Assembly: GCA_017962445.1 (NCBI GenBank)
Contig: JAGCVI010000027.1
Location: forward strand, 1-64,000
DNA length: 64,000 nucleotides
Source: Bacteroidales bacterium
GTDB taxonomy: Bacteria > Bacteroidota > Bacteroidia > Bacteroidales > P3
Reading direction: 5' to 3'
In this document: positions 2,855-38,592 of the stretch, in pieces
Position numbering within the stretch: position 1 is the stretch's first letter
Layout of the letters: every line of letters begins with the position of its first letter
The notes under the pieces: model-generated
Told to the model about the DNA's origin: nothing
Databases searched by the model: none
The model's input: only the letters and a program-made list of their open reading frames with translations
Position numbers and translations under genes: made by a program

Positions 2855-5110
2855 ATGAACATCATCAACAAGAAATTCGATCTCGGCGACGGCCGCATGA
2901 TCGAAATCGAGACTGGCAAGCTTGCCAAGCAGGCCGACGGTTCGGCAGTGGTGCGCATGAACGACACCATGCTCTTGGCCACCGTCTGCTCGAAGAAAGA
3001 AGTCGGTGAGAATGTGGACTTCATGCCCCTCACCGTGGATTACCAAGAGAAATACGCCGCCATGGGCCGCTTCCCCGGTGGCTTTTTCAAACGCGAGGCA
3101 CGCCCTTCGGAGCATGAAATCCTGATTGCACGACTGGTGGACCGCGCCCTGCGCCCGCTGTTCCCCGACAACTTCCACGCCGAGGTGCAGGTGCAGATAA
3201 CCCTCATTTCGGGCGACAAGAACACCATGCCCGACCAACTGGCCGCACTGGCAGCCGCTTCGGCTCTCGCCGTCAGCGACATACCGTTCAACGGCCCCGT
3301 CAGCGAGGTTCGCGTAAGCTACCTCGACGGACAATATGTAATCAACACCCCGATGCAGGACATCGAACGCGCTGACCTCGACCTTATCGTCGCAGCCACC
3401 GAGGAGAACATCATGATGGTGGAAGGCGAAATGAAGGAAGTCAGCGAAGAGATTATGCTCGGAGCCCTCAAAGCCGCACACGAGGCCATCAAGACCCAGT
3501 GCCGCGTCATCGCTGAACTGACCGTAGAGGCCGGCAAGACCGAGAAACGCGAGTACTGCCACGAGGTCAACGACGAAGAGCTGCGCCAACGCCTGCACGA
3601 CGCCGTATACCAGAAATGCTACGACTTCTCGAAGCAAGGCATCGCCAACAAGCACATGCGCGAGGAAGGCTTCGAAGCCATCAAACAGGAATTCATCGAC
3701 GCCAACTATACAGAGGAAACCCTCACCGACGAAATCAAGTTCATGATCGACCGCTACTACCACGACACCGAGCGCGAAGCCATGCGCGACATGGTGCTCA
3801 ACGAGCGCACACGTCTCGACGGTCGCCAGCTTGACGAGATACGTCCCCTCTGGAGCGAAGTGAACTACCTGCCTTCGGCACACGGTAGCGCAATATTCAC
3901 ACGTGGCGAGACCCAGTCGCTGTCGACTGTCACCCTCGGCACCAAACTCGACGAGCAGATTATCGACGGCGCAGTCATCGAAGGCACACGCCGATTCCTG
4001 CTGCACTACAACTTCCCGGGCTTCGCCACCGGTGAGGTCAAAGGCAACCGCGGTCTCAGCCGCCGCGAAGTCGGCCACGGCCACCTGGCATGGCGCGCCC
4101 TGAAAGAGGTGCTGCCCACATCTGAGGATTGCCCCTACACCATCCGCGTTGTCAGCGACATCCTCGAAAGCAACGGTTCCAGCTCTATGGCCACCGTTTG
4201 CGCCGGATGCCTGGCACTTATGGATGCCGGTGTGAAGATCCGCAAGCCGGTCGCCGGCATCGCCATGGGTTTGATTTCCAAGGGTGACAAATGGGCCGTG
4301 CTGAGCGACATCCTCGGTGACGAGGACCACTTGGGCGACATGGACTTCAAGGTCTGCGGCACACGCGACGGTATCACTGCCTGCCAGATGGATATCAAGG
4401 TCGACGGCCTCAGCTACGACGTTCTGGCCAAGGCTCTTGAGCAGGCACGCCAAGGCCGTCTGCACATCCTCAACCATATACAGGAAACCATCGCCGAGCC
4501 GCGCGAGGACTACAAGCCCTTCGTGCCGCGCATCGTCCAGATCCACATACCCAAAGACTTTATCGGCGCTGTTATCGGCAAGGGTGGCGAGGTTATCCAG
4601 AAAATCCAGGCCGAAACCAACACCATCATCAACATCGAGGAAGAGGGCGAGTTCGGTATTGTCGATGTCGCTTCACAGAACAAGGACGACATCGAAGCTG
4701 CTATCAAGTGGATCAAGGATATCTGCACCGTCCCCGAGGTCGGCCAGATTTACGACGCCAAGGTGGTCAGCATTGTCGAGTTCGGCGCATTCCTCGAGTT
4801 CCTGCCCGGCAAAGAGGGCCTGATGCACATCAGCGAATACGACTGGAAACGTACCGACACGCTTGAGAACCTGATTCACGAGGGCGACATCATCCAGGTG
4901 AAGATTATTGCCATCGACGAGAAGACCGGCAAGCTGAAACTCAGCCGCAAGGCCCTGCTCCCCAAGCCCGAAGGCTACGAGGAGGAGAAACCCGCCCGCG
5001 GTCCGCGCCACGAAGGTGGCAACGGAGGCCCGCGTCGTGACGGAGGCCGTCGCGATGGCGGTGACCGTCGCCGCAGCGGCAACAACGGCGGCGGCGAACG
5101 TCGCAAATAA
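2855..5110 (+). CDS. pnp: Polyribonucleotide nucleotidyltransferase (PNPase)
   Basis: A 751-aa phosphorolytic 3'-to-5' exoribonuclease, core of mRNA decay; it forms a trimeric ring in the cytosol. Order of domains: RNase PH 1 (about 10-230), linker helices, RNase PH 2 (about 310-540, with the phosphate-site block [11 protein letters not shown]), KH domain ([14 protein letters not shown], about 564-620) and S1 domain (from about 628). The last 40 or so residues are very rich in Arg and Gly, an RGG-like tail often seen on Bacteroidota RNA-binding proteins and likely to add RNA affinity. A strong terminator follows. Confidence 0.97.
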
Positions 5111-32907: not shown

Positions 32908-35064
32908 CTACTTCAAGTAGTCCTCATAGTACTGGAACATCTTGTGGTATAAGTGGATACGGTCGTAACCAAGGACATTGTGTTCGTGGTGTGGGTAGAT
33001 GAAGTAATCAACCAGCTTGCCTTCCTTAATGCAGGCTTGAATAAATTCAATGCTGTTCTGCCACACGACGGTGTTGTCCTCGGCACCATGGATGACGAGC
33101 AGACGGCCCTTGAGGTCGCCAGCCTTATTGACAAGCGATGTTTTTTTGTAACCCTCGGGGTTCTCATCGGGAGTGTCCATATAGCGTTCGCCGTACATGA
33201 CCTCATACCACTTCCAGTCGATGACCGGGCCACCAGCACAACCCACCTTGAAAATCTCGGGATGAGCGAGTTTCATGGTTATGGTCATGAATCCGCCAAA
33301 GCTCCAACCCTCGACACCCATACGGTCCTTGTCGACATAAGGCAACGACTGGAGGAACTTGACACCTTCCATCTGATCGGCCATCTCAATCTCGCCAAGA
33401 TGACGGTGTGTGCAGCTCTCGAACTCGAAGCCACGATTGTCGGTACCACGGTTGTCGAGCGTGTAAACGACATATCCCTGTTGAGCCAGGAACATGAAAT
33501 AAAGATTGCCGCCGCCAAGCCATGAGTCGGTAACCAACTGGCTGTGCGGACCACCATAGACGTATACAAGTGTGGGATATTTCTTACCCGGCTTCATGTC
33601 GGGAGGAGTGATGAGTCGATAGTAGAGATCGGTCTTGCCGTCAGCAGCCTTTATAGAACCCATCTGGATGCCAGGCATGGCATACTCCGACAAGGGATTG
33701 TCCTTCTCCTCAATGGTAGCCTGGAGCTTGCCTTTGCCGTTATAGACCAATGTCTTGGACGGAACATCCACACTGCTGAAACGGTCGATGATGCTGTTGC
33801 CGTTGGAGCTGACAATCACGCGGTGGGTGCCGTGTTCAGGGGTGAGAAGTGTCATTTCGCCAGACTTGATATTGACTTTGTATGCATAGAGACCTGTGGG
33901 CTCCTGCTTATTGGAATAGACAAATACATTCTCGCCCTTGGTGTCGAACGAGATGAAGCTCTGAACATCGAAGTCACCTTTGGTGATTTGTTTAATCAAC
34001 TGGCCATCTGTATTGTAAAGATAGAGATGTTTGTAGCCGTCACGTTCGCTGAACCAAAGGAACTGGTCGTTGCGTCCCGGCAGGAAGAAAAGACCTTCCT
34101 GCGGATCGATATAACGGTTGCTGGTCTCTTCGAAAAGGACTTTTTCCAACTTGCCGGTCTCGACATCGTAGCTTTCAAGCCACAGATGATCCTGTCCACG
34201 GCAAATCTTGGCTATGTATATGTGTTTCTCGTCAGGGCTCCAGCTGATATTGGTCAGATAGTTCTCGCGCTCGGAGACAGACTCGTCCTTTCTGGTCAAA
34301 AGATAATGTACATCCTCAGTTGTAGTATTGTAGATTCCGACCGTCACCTCATGGCTCTTCATGCCGGCCATAGGATACTTGAACGGCTCGGTGGTAGCTA
34401 TGCGCGTGTTGGTGTTGACAAGCGGATAGTCGGTCACCATGGTCTCGTCCATACGGTAGAAAGCCAGGTAGCTGCCTTTCGGTGACCAGAAGGTACCCTT
34501 CTCAATGCCAAACTCATGGCGGTGGACAGGCTGACCATAGACGATGCCCGGATTGTCATCTTCCATGGCACATAATTTACCGTTTATACTGACATAAAGA
34601 TTGTTGTCTTTGGTATATGCCTGCTGAAAGGTGTTGGGTTCGATATCCACATTCTCACCATCGACTTCGTCATAGAGCTTGGTGAGGGTGCGCTTCTGGA
34701 TATTGTAGAGATAGCACCCTGAACGCAAATTGATTCGAAATTGCTTTTCATCCACAAATTTAAAGTTCCTAAGGCCACGGGCACTTTCACCGGTAGAGGC
34801 AAGCACATTGTTGAACTCATCGAGTGTCAACAGTTTCTTTACCGAACCGGGCTTCCCCATGAAAATGGTGTCGTCTTTGGCATAAGCAATCATATTGGTA
34901 TTGCCCACAAACTGCATGTCAGACAATGACGTACGGGGATAGAGTTTATAACTCATGGTCTGTTCAATGGTAAGCTGGCGTGACTGAGCCGCCAGTTGGC
35001 TGTTTTCACTGAACTGGAAACAAAAAACCAATGCCACGAAGGCAACAAAGCTTCTTTTCATCAT
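32908..35064 (-). CDS. Dipeptidyl peptidase IV (S9 family), exported
   Basis: 718 aa. Signal peptide MKRSFVAFVALVFCFQF..LAAQ, a beta-propeller domain to about 460, then an alpha/beta hydrolase domain. The triad is readable: S588 in GWSFGG, D663 in GAEDNTVVW, H695 in HHEHN. It releases X-Pro or X-Ala dipeptides from peptide N-termini in the periplasm or at the surface. The propeller has an FWSPKGSYLAFYRMDE block typical of DPP IV. It lies 4 nt downstream of the glycosyltransferase gene and is probably cotranscribed with it and ribE. Confidence 0.93.
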   Translation of the reverse strand: MMKRSFVAFVALVFCFQFSENSQLAAQSRQLTIEQTMSYKLYPRTSLSDMQFVGNTNMIAYAKDDTIFMGKPGSVKKLLTLDEFNNVLASTGESARGLRNFKFVDEKQFRINLRSGCYLYNIQKRTLTKLYDEVDGENVDIEPNTFQQAYTKDNNLYVSINGKLCAMEDDNPGIVYGQPVHRHEFGIEKGTFWSPKGSYLAFYRMDETMVTDYPLVNTNTRIATTEPFKYPMAGMKSHEVTVGIYNTTTEDVHYLLTRKDESVSERENYLTNISWSPDEKHIYIAKICRGQDHLWLESYDVETGKLEKVLFEETSNRYIDPQEGLFFLPGRNDQFLWFSERDGYKHLYLYNTDGQLIKQITKGDFDVQSFISFDTKGENVFVYSNKQEPTGLYAYKVNIKSGEMTLLTPEHGTHRVIVSSNGNSIIDRFSSVDVPSKTLVYNGKGKLQATIEEKDNPLSEYAMPGIQMGSIKAADGKTDLYYRLITPPDMKPGKKYPTLVYVYGGPHSQLVTDSWLGGGNLYFMFLAQQGYVVYTLDNRGTDNRGFEFESCTHRHLGEIEMADQMEGVKFLQSLPYVDKDRMGVEGWSFGGFMTITMKLAHPEIFKVGCAGGPVIDWKWYEVMYGERYMDTPDENPEGYKKTSLVNKAGDLKGRLLVIHGAEDNTVVWQNSIEFIQACIKEGKLVDYFIYPHHEHNVLGYDRIHLYHKMFQYYEDYLK

Positions 35065-35068
35065 ATAA

Positions 35069-35794
35069 TCAATATTTTTTCCATTTGCGGAATCGGAGCG
35101 AGAAGACTCCGAAGAAGGCTTCCTTGAAAATTTTCATACTCATTTTTGAAGTGCCAAGCACACGGTCAGTGAAGATGATGGGCACCTCGTAGACCTTGAA
35201 GCCCAAGCGGGTAGCTGTGTACTTCATCTCGATTTGGAAAGCATAGCCTACAAACTTCACCTTTTCGAACTTCATGCGTTCCAACACCTTGCGACTCCAG
35301 CACACAAATCCTGCCGTGGCATCACAGACCTTCATACGAGTCACCAAATGTACATACTTAGAAGCATAATAGCTCATCATCAAGCGTCCCATAGGCCAGT
35401 TGACGACACTGATTTTACCGTCAACGTAACGTGATCCGACAACTACATCGCCACTGCCAGAGGAACAAGCATCGTATAGACGCGGCAAGTCTTCAGGATT
35501 GTGGCTGAAATCGGCGTCCATTTCAATCATATAGTCATAGCCATGTTCCAATCCCCATGCAAAGCCTGCAAGATAGGCAGTGCCGAGACCTTGCTTGCCT
35601 TCACGCTCCTTGATGAAAAGACGGTCAGGAAACTCCTGCATCAGACGCTTCACTATGTCGGCAGTGCCGTCGGGCGAATTGTCCTCGACAATAAGCATGT
35701 CGAACTCTTTCTCCAACGAGAAAACCTTTCGAATAATGTTCTCAATGTTTTCCTTCTCGTTATATGTAGGAGTAATAACTAAAGTATCAGACAT
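35069..35794 (-). CDS. GT2 family polyprenyl-phosphate glycosyltransferase (DPM1-like)
   Basis: 241 aa, GT-A fold. VITPTYNEKENIENII opens the nucleotide-sugar site, VEDNSPDGTAD and EMDADFSHNPEDLP supply the acidic metal ligands, and SRYVDGKISVVNWPMGR..MS matches polyprenol-monophosphomannose synthases. No transmembrane helices, so it is the soluble DPM1 type, peripheral to the membrane. It would make polyprenyl-phosphate-mannose or -glucose as a donor for extracytoplasmic glycosylation, possibly protein O-glycosylation known in Bacteroidales. It is first in the run GT2, DPP IV, ribE. Confidence 0.88.
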   Translation of the reverse strand: MSDTLVITPTYNEKENIENIIRKVFSLEKEFDMLIVEDNSPDGTADIVKRLMQEFPDRLFIKEREGKQGLGTAYLAGFAWGLEHGYDYMIEMDADFSHNPEDLPRLYDACSSGSGDVVVGSRYVDGKISVVNWPMGRLMMSYYASKYVHLVTRMKVCDATAGFVCWSRKVLERMKFEKVKFVGYAFQIEMKYTATRLGFKVYEVPIIFTDRVLGTSKMSMKIFKEAFFGVFSLRFRKWKKY

Positions 35795-35963: not shown

Positions 35964-36782
35964 TTATCGGCTGATTTTCGGATGATTACGTTTCACCAGC
36001 AGCATTATCACAAAACCTACTGAAACACCGAGAAAATTGGAGACCATGTCGTTGATGTCGAATCCCCGATATGGCAGGAAATACTGCACCGTTTCGGTTG
36101 TGAAAGCCATCAGCAAAGCTGCCAGCCAAGCTCTGAAACGGAACTCCGGATAGGCTAGACGGCGAAAGTCCATAAGGAAAAAGACACAAGGGATATATAC
36201 CGAGGCATGAAGCAAATGGTCGAAACGTATGCCGAAAACGAAATTGTTAAGCGGAACGCCGACAAAACCCAAGGGAGCCCACATTAGAAAAATCAGAACA
36301 GCGAAATAGACCCACCTCATCCAACAACGCCTGTCACAATTCAAGAGATAATACGGAGTATTCTTGAGCGTTCTCTTAATCCTTACACAATTAGAGCGGC
36401 GTTTCCATTCATGACTATGGCATGAAATTATACTACCATCGGAGTGTTCAACAGCCACAAGCTGGGCCAAAACAGCACTTCGCGACACCTTTTCGCAAGT
36501 GCGGCAGTTGTCGCCACGAAATACCAACTCATCCTTTTTCTGTCGTATCAAACGATGAATAACAAAACGACCGTCATAGGCAAACATATAGACCATACCT
36601 CGCTGTAAAGACTGACCTTCAACAATCTGCCTAAGGTGAATCACATCACCGGCACCGTCTATCATAGGCTGCATGCTGTTGCCGCCAAAGGCTATCTGTA
36701 CAGTGAGCCCCTGCTGGAAGCGTTGCTGCATCTCGTCGTACAAGAAACCGTCGACAACGTTTGGAAATGAGAGCCTATTCAT
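35964..36782 (-). CDS. S24/S26-type peptidase domain fused to a VanZ-like membrane domain
   Basis: 272 aa from ATG 36782, whose ATGA overlaps the stop of the upstream kinase gene; a longer start at 36803 is less likely. Residues about 20-125 resemble the signal peptidase/LexA core: GGNSMQPMID with nucleophile S36, and FVIHRLI with H76 where bacterial SPase I has Lys and ER-type SPases have His, then VFRGDNC. Residues 157-265 carry four hydrophobic helices with FDHLLHASVY and TETVQYFLPYRGFDINDM, the VanZ signature. I know both domains separately; the fusion is unusual. The likely role is cleaving a peptide or tethering the peptidase to the inner membrane, as the last gene of the PqqD-kinase operon. 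Confidence 0.7.
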   Translation of the reverse strand: MNRLSFPNVVDGFLYDEMQQRFQQGLTVQIAFGGNSMQPMIDGAGDVIHLRQIVEGQSLQRGMVYMFAYDGRFVIHRLIRQKKDELVFRGDNCRTCEKVSRSAVLAQLVAVEHSDGSIISCHSHEWKRRSNCVRIKRTLKNTPYYLLNCDRRCWMRWVYFAVLIFLMWAPLGFVGVPLNNFVFGIRFDHLLHASVYIPCVFFLMDFRRLAYPEFRFRAWLAALLMAFTTETVQYFLPYRGFDINDMVSNFLGVSVGFVIMLLVKRNHPKISR

Positions 36783-37648
36783 TGAAATATCGTTGATGAA
36801 CATAGTCTGGCCGCATCAGCATCGGGCAAACATTGCAGATGATAGAAAGGGACTTTCTTAATTGTTTTGGAGATGATATCAAGATAAAGGTCAGTAAACA
36901 GGTCGGCATGCATAAGCGCAGGCGGGAGCGAGGGCTGAATGGCGGACAGAGCCTCGACTGCATGAAGTCTGCGAATATGATTGCCAGGAGCCTGCGAAAG
37001 GCGCACAATTGCAGCTACTGGAAAGCTATAGGCAACATAGCACGGAGTCTTGCCGCTCCAAGGGCTGCCATGGACATACGGCACACCGTCTGTCACAGAC
37101 AGCATAGGGCTATCGTCGTTGAGCAGGCTTGTACCTTCAATGTTTTCAAGCCATAACTTTGAATGAGTGCTTTTGCCTGTACCGGACTCTCCCAAGAAAA
37201 GAACCGCCTTTCCATGACGCACAACCACCGAACTATGAACCGGCGACACACCCGCTCTTGCAGCCAACATCCCATAAGCGAACCACAACGAAAAACGAAG
37301 AGCTGAGAAATCAGTGCAGCTGCTGACCTCGACGAAATCAGAGCCTTCGGAATAATGCAAGCACGCGAGAGGAATATCTGAATTATCCGGACGGATAACA
37401 AACTGATAAACGCCATTGCGAACTGAAAACTGACAGCGTCCGTTGATTTCAGCAAGGATTGATTCATATATTACTTCCGCATCACCCCATAGAGTAACAT
37501 CGGCATCATAACAAACACGCCATTCGGGTTTGGAATCATGAACAATGAACGGCACGAAACCCTCGTAGCCATTGACAAAAGTCGAAGCCGTATTGCCTTC
37601 GACTTTTAATGTGTGTCCTGCTATTTTCAAACAGACTGAGCGAATCAT
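36779..37648 (-). CDS. HprK-like P-loop serine kinase-related protein
   Basis: 289 aa. Residues 1 to about 125 are a divergent beta-rich N-terminal domain. The C-terminal part resembles the HPr kinase/PEPCK-like fold: SPVHSSVVVRHGKAVLFLG leads to the Walker A GESGTGKST (153-161), then LLNDDSP with DD 178-179, then HGSPWSGK. Family members in peptide gene clusters include kinases that phosphorylate lasso-peptide precursors; others have unknown targets. It lacks the HprK N-terminal domain and no HPr gene is near, so it is unlikely to be the catabolite kinase. It is coupled by ATGA overlaps to PqqD upstream and to the S24-VanZ gene downstream. Confidence 0.75.
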   Translation of the reverse strand: MIRSVCLKIAGHTLKVEGNTASTFVNGYEGFVPFIVHDSKPEWRVCYDADVTLWGDAEVIYESILAEINGRCQFSVRNGVYQFVIRPDNSDIPLACLHYSEGSDFVEVSSCTDFSALRFSLWFAYGMLAARAGVSPVHSSVVVRHGKAVLFLGESGTGKSTHSKLWLENIEGTSLLNDDSPMLSVTDGVPYVHGSPWSGKTPCYVAYSFPVAAIVRLSQAPGNHIRRLHAVEALSAIQPSLPPALMHADLFTDLYLDIISKTIKKVPFYHLQCLPDADAARLCSSTIFQ

Positions 37649-37911
37649 TCCAATAATTTTTTCTCACTCAAAGTGGCAATCCAAGCATCGGCATCCGAGG
37701 CTGCAGTGGCGTTATCGACATCGAAACGTTCAGTCAAGAGGTTGACAACATCGTCTTTCGAGAACTCGCGACCAACAAGGTTGTTCCAAAGATAGAGCGA
37801 TGTTTCGTTTAAAGCAATGACCGTAGTCATATCGCCAGGATTGCGACCCTGCATAAGGATAACATTCTCGTCCGCCACCTGACGAACTTTATAGCGAGAG
37901 AGTATCTTCAT
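37645..37911 (-). CDS. PqqD-like peptide-binding protein
   Basis: 88 aa, full PqqD length. KILSRYKVRQVADENVILMQG starts the winged-helix fold and ALNETSLYLWNNLVGREFSKDDVVNLLTERFDVD is the conserved helical middle of PqqD proteins (the residues after E correspond to N-x-T/S-A-x-x-I/L-W). PqqD domains are RiPP recognition elements that hold leader peptides for modifying enzymes. No radical SAM gene and no precursor peptide are evident next to it. The HprK-like gene starts on its stop codon. Confidence 0.8.
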   Translation of the reverse strand: MKILSRYKVRQVADENVILMQGRNPGDMTTVIALNETSLYLWNNLVGREFSKDDVVNLLTERFDVDNATAASDADAWIATLSEKKLLE

Positions 37912-37923
37912 AATTACAAACTA

Positions 37924-38532
37924 TTAAAAGGCAATTCCTAAGCGGAAACCAGCCGTAAATGCAAGCCAGCTATCCTTGGGGAAAAGCATAAAACTGTGGA
38001 AGTAATTGTTGTCGTTGCCCGTTCCAAACGATGGACCAAAACCTGAATAAATATCAAAAACGAACCAATTGAGAACAAGCTGGTAGCCACATTCAGCAAG
38101 CAGGGCAACCTGATTTGTCCTTTCTGGACATTTGGGAGGTTCTTCGCCTGGATTCAATTCATGTCCGTATTTAAACGCTGCCAACACAAACTCAGGCTTG
38201 ACATAAAAGCCGGCCAACCAGCTTGAAATGGGACTTTGAGGAATCAAACGCCATTTGTATGCAAGTTTAACCAGCACCCCTTTGGGATCTGAGTTGTTCA
38301 TCCAGTCCCAGCCCATACCTATGATGCCTATGGTGGCTTCAGCACTGTTACGGGGACTGAACGCACGCTCATAAGTAAATCGAGACGAGCCACTGCCAAG
38401 TGACAGCAAGGTTATCTTGAAATCATTCTTCCTTGCCGTATTGTCGCGCACTTCCTGGGCCACTGACGGTGTAGCAAACAAGAGCGCACTAATGCAGCAA
38501 ATAAAACTTAAAAATCTATATTTCAACCTCAT
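37924..38532 (-). CDS. Outer-membrane beta-barrel-like protein heading the PqqD operon
   Basis: 202 aa from ATG 38532. Signal peptide LKYRFLSFICCISALLFATPSVAQ. The mature protein has alternating hydrophobic strands and many aromatic residues (SSRFTYERAFSPRNSAEATIGIIGMGWDWM, GVLVKLAYKWRL, WLAFTAGFRLGIAF) and ends in Phe, as outer-membrane barrels do. It is similar in style to DUF3575 proteins but I would not assign the family. The -7 box at 38563-38570 excludes the longer frame. PqqD follows 12 nt later, so all four genes are likely one transcript. Confidence 0.6.
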   Translation of the reverse strand: MRLKYRFLSFICCISALLFATPSVAQEVRDNTARKNDFKITLLSLGSGSSRFTYERAFSPRNSAEATIGIIGMGWDWMNNSDPKGVLVKLAYKWRLIPQSPISSWLAGFYVKPEFVLAAFKYGHELNPGEEPPKCPERTNQVALLAECGYQLVLNWFVFDIYSGFGPSFGTGNDNNYFHSFMLFPKDSWLAFTAGFRLGIAF

Positions 38533-38562
38533 GTATCGTTTCAAACATTGAATTGTAATGTA

Positions 38563-38592
38563 CAAAATTACATTTTTTTCTTCATACTCAAA
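38563..38592 (-). promoter_or_regulatory. Promoter of the OMP-PqqD-kinase-peptidase operon
   Basis: Minus strand TTTG (38592-38589), 18-nt spacer, TAATTTTG (38570-38563). Confidence 0.65.

Follow-up and report, generated by a model that had tools for sequence, protein, structure and literature searches.

Introduction

Linear polyphosphorylated peptides (LPPs), reported in 2026, derive from the lppAKBSDN genes of Paenibacillus alginolyticus, a gene set described as comprising a SipW-like peptidase, a discrete recognition element (RRE) for ribosomally synthesized and post-translationally modified peptides (RiPPs), an HprK-like kinase, a nucleoside triphosphate (NTP) transferase and an MsbA-like exporter (PMC13381572). 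By the same account, LPP precursors carry the motif YxxPxVLxHQxIxFETxxS; the RRE, LppB, is marked by N33, D70 and F74, with Asp70 holding the leader Tyr and Asn33 the Pro kink; the kinase acts on Ser3 of the core, which it polyphosphorylates; and the peptidase, LppS, is RRE-dependent, uses S29, H68 and D93 and cuts where a Px9Fx[T/A] motif ends. LPPs were presented as a Bacillota family of unknown role with precursors encoded beside the enzymes: the discussion calls them restricted to Bacillota, the results call them predominantly so, and the main text has no word beginning with 'bacteroid' (PMC13381572). Here we describe a trio of genes in a 64,000-nt stretch of DNA from a Bacteroidales bacterium (positions 1 to 64,000 of contig JAGCVI010000027.1, assembly GCA_017962445.1; hereafter the window), encoding a PqqD-family RRE, an HprK-like kinase and an S24/S26-type peptidase fused to a VanZ domain. 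Judged from comparative evidence throughout, this trio very probably matures the peptides of a Bacteroidales branch of the LPPs, acting in trans on precursors whose genes lie in other parts of the genome. As far as titles and abstracts show, no paper listed by our searches describes such a system in Bacteroidota, and none of this architecture is apparent in the accessible text of a Bacteroidales RiPP survey (PMC10352776).

Three adjacent genes form a conserved unit

The trio lies on the reverse strand. The PqqD-family protein (37645..37911), a discrete RRE resembling LppB and lasso B1 proteins (Pfam 5.7e-14; TfuB1 6jx3 4.5e-6), is the single PqqD match in a profile search of its own genome (G000, ~80% complete). 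The LppK-like P-loop kinase of HprK-like/PEPCK fold (36779..37648) shows His138, the Walker A sequence GESGTGKST and Asp178-Asp179. The third protein (35964..36782) combines an S24/S26 leader peptidase domain of the SipW/SEC11 type, with Ser36, His76 and Asp91 as catalytic triad (numbered from the ATG at 36782), and a C-terminal VanZ membrane domain. An earlier sequence-only reading of the window had joined these genes to an outer-membrane-protein-like gene (37924..38565, reverse strand, likely start 38532) in a four-gene operon, and had called for a comparison of neighbourhoods. The kinase was present in 22 of the 25 genomes of the genus covered by a first search (own genome counted), and the PqqD, HprK-like and S24/S26-VanZ genes were adjacent in 21 of these 22, the sole exception being G016 (L041). 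The trio proteins are mostly 40-50% identical across the genus, and the genes flanking them change between subclades. The three genes form a real unit; the outer-membrane gene is a passenger, since, apart from the window, only the closest relatives (L021, L045-L049) have it in this upstream position, so that the operon as first drawn holds for three of its four members.

The functional residues are well kept, as counted on distinct sequences (L027/L119, L038/L102, L044/L076 and L103/L209 being same-genome pairs). The putative leader-binding residues of the PqqD protein are Asn35, Asp73 and Trp77, of which N35 and D73 occur in 70/70 sequences each and W77 in 61/70 (otherwise F, L or I); N35 and D73 would correspond to N33 and D70 of LppB, positions that were matched by spacing and by an alignment to TfuB1 rather than by direct alignment to LppB. 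Their invariance is consistent with the leader binding that the sequence-only reading had ascribed to this protein. The catalytic Ser, His and Asp of the peptidase are found in 105, 104 and 105 of 108 sequences, respectively. In the kinase, H138, K159 and D179 are present in 108/108 and D178 in 107/108; we take these residues to have nucleotide- or metal-binding roles. Structure comparison assigned the predicted kinase structure to the PEPCK-type fold, which HprK presumably shares. The curated profiles of canonical HPr kinase/phosphorylase stay below cut-off (hpr-ser 12.4 bits versus 240, Hpr_kinase_C 11.8 versus 33.3).

A dispersed family of candidate precursor peptides

No member of the precursor family described here was found in the 64-kb window, in agreement with the earlier remark that no precursor was visible there, yet such a family exists, dispersed in the genome. 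When 2,647 small open reading frames (ORFs) outside larger genes were clustered (loci L021-L124 and the window region), one recurring family stood out, with 18 ORFs in 17 loci (one partly masked), in which the N-terminal leader is conserved and the end varies; the other clusters consisted of PqqD and of genes, or their shadow ORFs, from operons nearby. The motif Y-x-x-P-x-[VILM]-x7-E-x-G-[FYL]-x-x-S is present in 53/53 aligned precursors and its exact spacing in 52, an invariance that is partly circular, the precursors having been found by homology, a search that misses divergent members. The Ser just past the leader is invariant in all 53, the remainder of the peptide is acidic, glycine-rich and almost lysine-free, and an aromatic residue lies within the last four positions in 47/53. 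The sole NCBIfam model to respond was that of the paeninodin lasso precursor, and it did so weakly (2/19 members, best E 0.12).

One precursor was found in the source genome (G000:C31:28214, 62 residues); 2 nt separate it from an upstream gene with what reads like a lipoprotein start. Relatives in the genus carry up to 23 precursors, scattered over contigs, with a median of 4.5 in 40 good-quality precursor-positive genomes (258 matches in total; presence defined as E<=1e-3, good quality as >=90% complete and <=5% contaminated). In L077, L097 and L103 (L209 is from the same genome as L103) a precursor gene lies 12-38 nt upstream of the kinase gene.

Precursors track the kinase across genomes

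Among 79 genus genomes, 69 have the kinase, 72 have precursors, 68 have both and six have neither; the four with precursors and no kinase match (G006, G182, G221, G223) are 68-80% complete. In the 44 good-quality genomes, precursors occurred in 40/40 with the kinase versus 0/4 without (p about 7e-6, in a test that, like our other co-occurrence tests, ignores phylogeny). In a sample of 149 genomes from the order, the kinase (E<=1e-20) was detected in nine, precursors in five and both in four, so that precursors were present in 4/9 kinase-positive versus 1/140 other genomes. The earlier suggestion that the trio might modify a peptide encoded elsewhere fits this leader-bearing family, which lies elsewhere in the genome and tracks the kinase.

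Losses point in the same direction. G014, G189 and G197, which have neither kinase nor precursor match genome-wide and no PqqD or kinase gene near S24-VanZ (PqqD having been sought at the locus, not genome-wide), retain an S24-VanZ protein in which the catalytic Ser has become Gly and the His Arg; they are the only three of 108 distinct peptidase sequences with a changed Ser. The peptidase site appears to follow its substrates, because Ser and His are lost in genomes that lack kinase and precursors. The VanZ half, in contrast, seems not to depend on the peptidase: in G186, G221 and G225 a VanZ protein has been retained but S24 has not, G221 (80% complete) still having one precursor match. Relatives of this half persist in L203-L206 (G186, G225, G221, G179) with S24 absent or elsewhere, in G179 beside a PqqD gene, which suggests an independent VanZ role.

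Precursor genes are paired with lipoprotein genes

A lipoprotein gene follows 44/58 precursor genes, at a median gap of 25.5 nt, as compared to 31/600 control small ORFs, the controls having been sampled at random from the 2,647 small ORFs, which do not cover every precursor locus, and still including any precursors among them. Two of the 60 unique precursors were dropped, their downstream sequence being too short. Of the 14 unpaired precursors, three precede a kinase gene, five precede another ORF (that in L112 reads like a lipoprotein missed by the filter) and six have no ORF of 250 amino acids within 500 nt; the precursor of the source genome was scored as unpaired, its lipoprotein being upstream. 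Among the 44 pairs, one lipobox call is doubtful (L167), L052 and L188 are near-copies, and the tandem pair of L078, one copy of which is partly masked, shares one lipoprotein. In 29 of the 44 paired lipoproteins the Cys is followed by x-[K/Q]-[D/E], which we take to resemble the Bacteroidota surface-export signal. Pfam recognises little or nothing in these lipoproteins. In L187 (G021:C58, 5327-12935) four precursor genes alternate with lipoprotein genes, and three of the peptides are nearly identical. Taken together, these arrangements suggest that each peptide may act with its lipoprotein at the cell surface.

Two further observations concern precursor neighbours. Judged by eye, large genes next to precursors may contain fimbrillin-like and FISUMP-like domains. 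In L078 of Bacteroides oleiciplenus (3043-3372) two tandem precursor copies are followed by an 823-residue BspA-type leucine-rich-repeat lipoprotein and then by Wzz-like, ATP-binding cassette (ABC) exporter and kinase genes.

Comparison with LPPs and lasso peptides

The likeness to the LPP system, as far as its published description goes, covers the enzymes and, in part, the precursors. The trio consists of a discrete RRE, an HprK-like kinase and a SipW-type Ser/His/Asp leader peptidase, with no cyclase; the precursors share a Y-x-x-P-x-[V/L/I/M] leader, a post-leader Ser and a variable C-terminus, and Px9ExG stands in the same register as Px9Fx[T/A] of the Bacillota peptides. Many other Bacteroidales loci also possess an NTP transferase and an exporter of the MsbA/PglK type. 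The differences lie in the phylum, Bacteroidales as opposed to Bacillota; in the layout, precursors here being dispersed and often many per genome, as compared to one to three within the LPP cluster; in the leader end, VE[K/R]G-F-A-x-S versus FET-x-x-S; in the VanZ-fused peptidase and the pairing with lipoprotein genes; in exporter and NTP transferase, which belong to the LPP core cluster and are absent from the window locus; and in the incidence of the kinase, found in 69/79 genus genomes here versus the patchy occurrence of LPPs (PMC13381572). The phylum, the one-to-many layout in trans, the VanZ fusion and the lipoprotein pairing are new here, as is the absence of exporter and NTP transferase from the locus.

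Lasso peptide clusters of the paeninodin and Bsf types also resemble the trio, in published accounts, by a B1-type RRE, a kinase, a nucleotidyltransferase and a YxxPxL-like leader motif, but differ by a B2 protein and a cyclase that were not found here and by a different peptidase (PMC7533575, PMC10368454). Lasso B2 (PF13471) was found in 0/16 genus genomes searched and in 2/9 other genomes of the order (G030, G031). With the Asn_synthase profile no lasso cyclase was recognised in the source genome, whose two partial matches are weak (22.1 and 21.5 bits at a cut-off of 21, over 69 and 59 of 354 positions). Because B2 was not found in 16 genomes and a cyclase was not recognised in the source genome, we do not file the system as lasso. 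By contrast, L043 (G031:C15), where a more distant HprK-like gene stands beside a sulfotransferase gene with NTP_transf_5 and PF13471 within about 2 kb, is probably a true lasso cluster.

Other known pairings of this kind match poorly. The SynChlorMet cassette (ScmC, ScmD; TIGR04249, TIGR04248) also has a PqqD-like and HprK-like pair, but its profiles match far under cut-off (26 of 125 and 16 of 100 bits). The HprK-related kinase A model of the HPr-rel-A system (TIGR04352), which presumably shares the PqqD/HprK-like pairing, reached 21 of 200 bits, again below cut-off.

Proposed pathway and alternatives

We propose that the PqqD protein would bind the leader at its Y-x-x-P-x-[VILM] motif, the kinase would phosphorylate the invariant Ser just past it, and the S26-type domain, probably cytoplasmic and held at the membrane through VanZ, would remove the leader. 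The cut would most likely fall after the invariant Gly, because Px9ExG shares its register with the Px9Fx[T/A] motif that ends at the LPP cut, and the phosphorylated residue would then be Ser4 of the core. A reading of the conserved A-x-S as the -3/-1 site of a signal peptidase was dropped, the LPP motif favouring a cut after Gly and phosphorylation of the Ser. The predicted product is an acidic, glycine-rich linear core, usually with an aromatic motif at its end; one trio would serve from one to more than 20 precursors per genome, and the lipoprotein encoded with most of them may receive the peptide or act as its partner. VanZ may take the place of the ABC exporter, as an anchor in the membrane or a point of hand-over; topology, export route and the parts played by VanZ and lipoprotein are, like binding, phosphorylation and cut site, read from such comparisons. 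The minimal modification and cleavage pathway that the sequence-only reading envisaged, without radical SAM enzyme or cyclase, is supported to this extent, while its suggestion of a cell-envelope target for the kinase is not needed, though precursors do adjoin lipoprotein genes. On a larger scale, and with confidence a little above even, we picture a genome-wide RiPP economy in which one membrane-tethered RRE-kinase-peptidase unit serves a dispersed, expandable set of phosphorylated peptides; every peptide would be co-expressed with a surface lipoprotein of its own, in cassettes gained and lost independently of the maturase.

Several observations weigh against the assignment to LPPs. The residue at leader position -3 is Glu rather than Phe, and the distance from Tyr to Ser is 19 instead of 18 (PMC13381572, as far as described). 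To the partial circularity of the motif and the neglect of phylogeny in the co-occurrence tests are added a kinase-positive genome without detected precursor (G212, 83% complete; 1/79), five of nine kinase-positive genomes of the order sample without precursors at E<=1e-3, and G062, where a precursor is present, near a contig end, and the kinase unmatched. The kinase model resembles PEPCK, and canonical HprK structures are absent among the matches listed. NTP transferase and exporter are not beside the trio at the window locus, and the best exporter match in the source genome is only 28% identical. Finally, PqqD was unmatched within the fetched stretch in 36/80 named loci, many of them from Alistipes.

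Three other explanations were considered. The PEPCK-like fold and the weak similarity to known HprK would suit a kinase that does not phosphorylate at all, acting for instance as an ATP-dependent gate or regulator while RRE and peptidase alone mature the peptides; we consider this unlikely, given the near-complete conservation of H138, K159, D178 and D179 in their presumed roles, and the invariant Ser after the leader in every aligned precursor. LppK, from the same gene context, moreover polyphosphorylates the equivalent Ser in the published system (PMC13381572, main text). That the small ORFs encode leader or regulatory peptides for lipoprotein operons, with no relation to the trio, and that the trio modifies another target, such as a polysaccharide or glycolipid component, is improbable: their position before lipoprotein genes in 44/58 cases, the several genus NTP_transf_5 genes in O-antigen or exopolysaccharide (EPS)-type clusters and a GT2 like polyprenyl-phosphate hexose synthases behind the trio in one subclade would fit, but the leader bears the RRE-binding motif of lasso peptides and LPPs, three precursor genes stand directly upstream of a kinase gene, and kinase and precursors co-occur, the peptidase having lost its active site in genomes that lack precursors. 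It is very improbable that the trio is what remains of a degenerate lasso or LPP cluster that has lost exporter, NTP transferase and cyclase and has no substrate: these genes are indeed missing beside the trio, the window has no precursor, PF13471 was not found in the 16 genus genomes searched and Asn_synthase gave only weak partial matches in the source genome, yet almost every distinct sequence has intact kinase and peptidase active sites, 21/22 kinase-positive genomes have kept the trio, precursors exist elsewhere in the genome, and the catalytic Ser is lost only where precursors were not found.

An LPP branch of this kind would bring LPP-like logic to gut and rumen Bacteroidales, with the maturase in most genomes of one genus, and the 258 matches in 40 good-quality genomes indicate hundreds of unrecognised small genes together with a motif by which to find them. 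Natural losses are supplied as well, in the form of a dead peptidase where substrates are gone, so that the function of phosphorylated RiPPs becomes testable in another phylum.

Variants of the trio, neighbouring genes and promoter

Named genomes, when scanned, showed the kinase family to be widespread in Bacteroidales, with at least 568 of at least 594 candidate stretches confirmed and carriers that include uncultured rumen Bacteroidales, Alistipes, Bacteroides oleiciplenus and Dysgonomonas. Among the best 80 of the at least 568 confirmed stretches, S24 was matched in 79, an ABC exporter in 49 (non-adjacent in L082 and L114), PqqD in 44, an NTP_transf_5 cluster in 13 and a VanZ fusion in 23, just one of which (L114) also has an ABC match. 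Since exporter and NTP transferase are absent at the locus and S24 is fused to VanZ, we regard the window trio as a reduced form. Named Alistipes loci such as L061-L073 show ABC exporter - kinase - S24 clusters with PqqD unmatched in the fetched stretch. Natural fusions of kinase and peptidase occur in L082 and L207, and in L042 (G036:C641, 1716-3956) an S24-type peptidase is fused to the N-terminus of an ABC exporter, where exporters with a built-in peptidase mostly have one of the cysteine type.

The source genome has its NTP_transf_5 gene elsewhere (G000:C8:7775-8479, L130), adjoining a GT2 gene. Such genes of the genus (L130, L131-L149) often stand in O-antigen/EPS-like clusters with GT2, ABC-2/Wzt-like transporters, sugar transferase and DegT, and L145 and L146 also have a precursor-lipoprotein pair close to the NTP_transf_5 gene. 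We did not adopt a role of the trio in a polysaccharide pathway, to which these clusters and a Wzz-type protein beside ABC-kinase genes in L078 (a cluster mate in L075) had pointed, as the trio is better explained by the precursor family; the NTP transferase may still be linked to sugars.

Downstream of the trio in the window, on the same strand, are a polyprenyl-phosphate sugar transferase-like GT2 (35069-35794) and an S9 dipeptidyl peptidase (32908-35064), a pair likewise found behind the trio in seven other genus loci (L021-L027). Generic sigma-70-like sites (15 versus 10.3 +/- 2.5 in shuffles) and terminator-like sites (8 versus 6.5 +/- 2.5) in the window were uninformative. At the upstream end, the sequence TTTG-N18-TAATTTTG (38563..38592, reverse strand) fits what we take to be the Bacteroidetes-type promoter consensus, a pattern that occurs six times in the window versus 1.06 expected.

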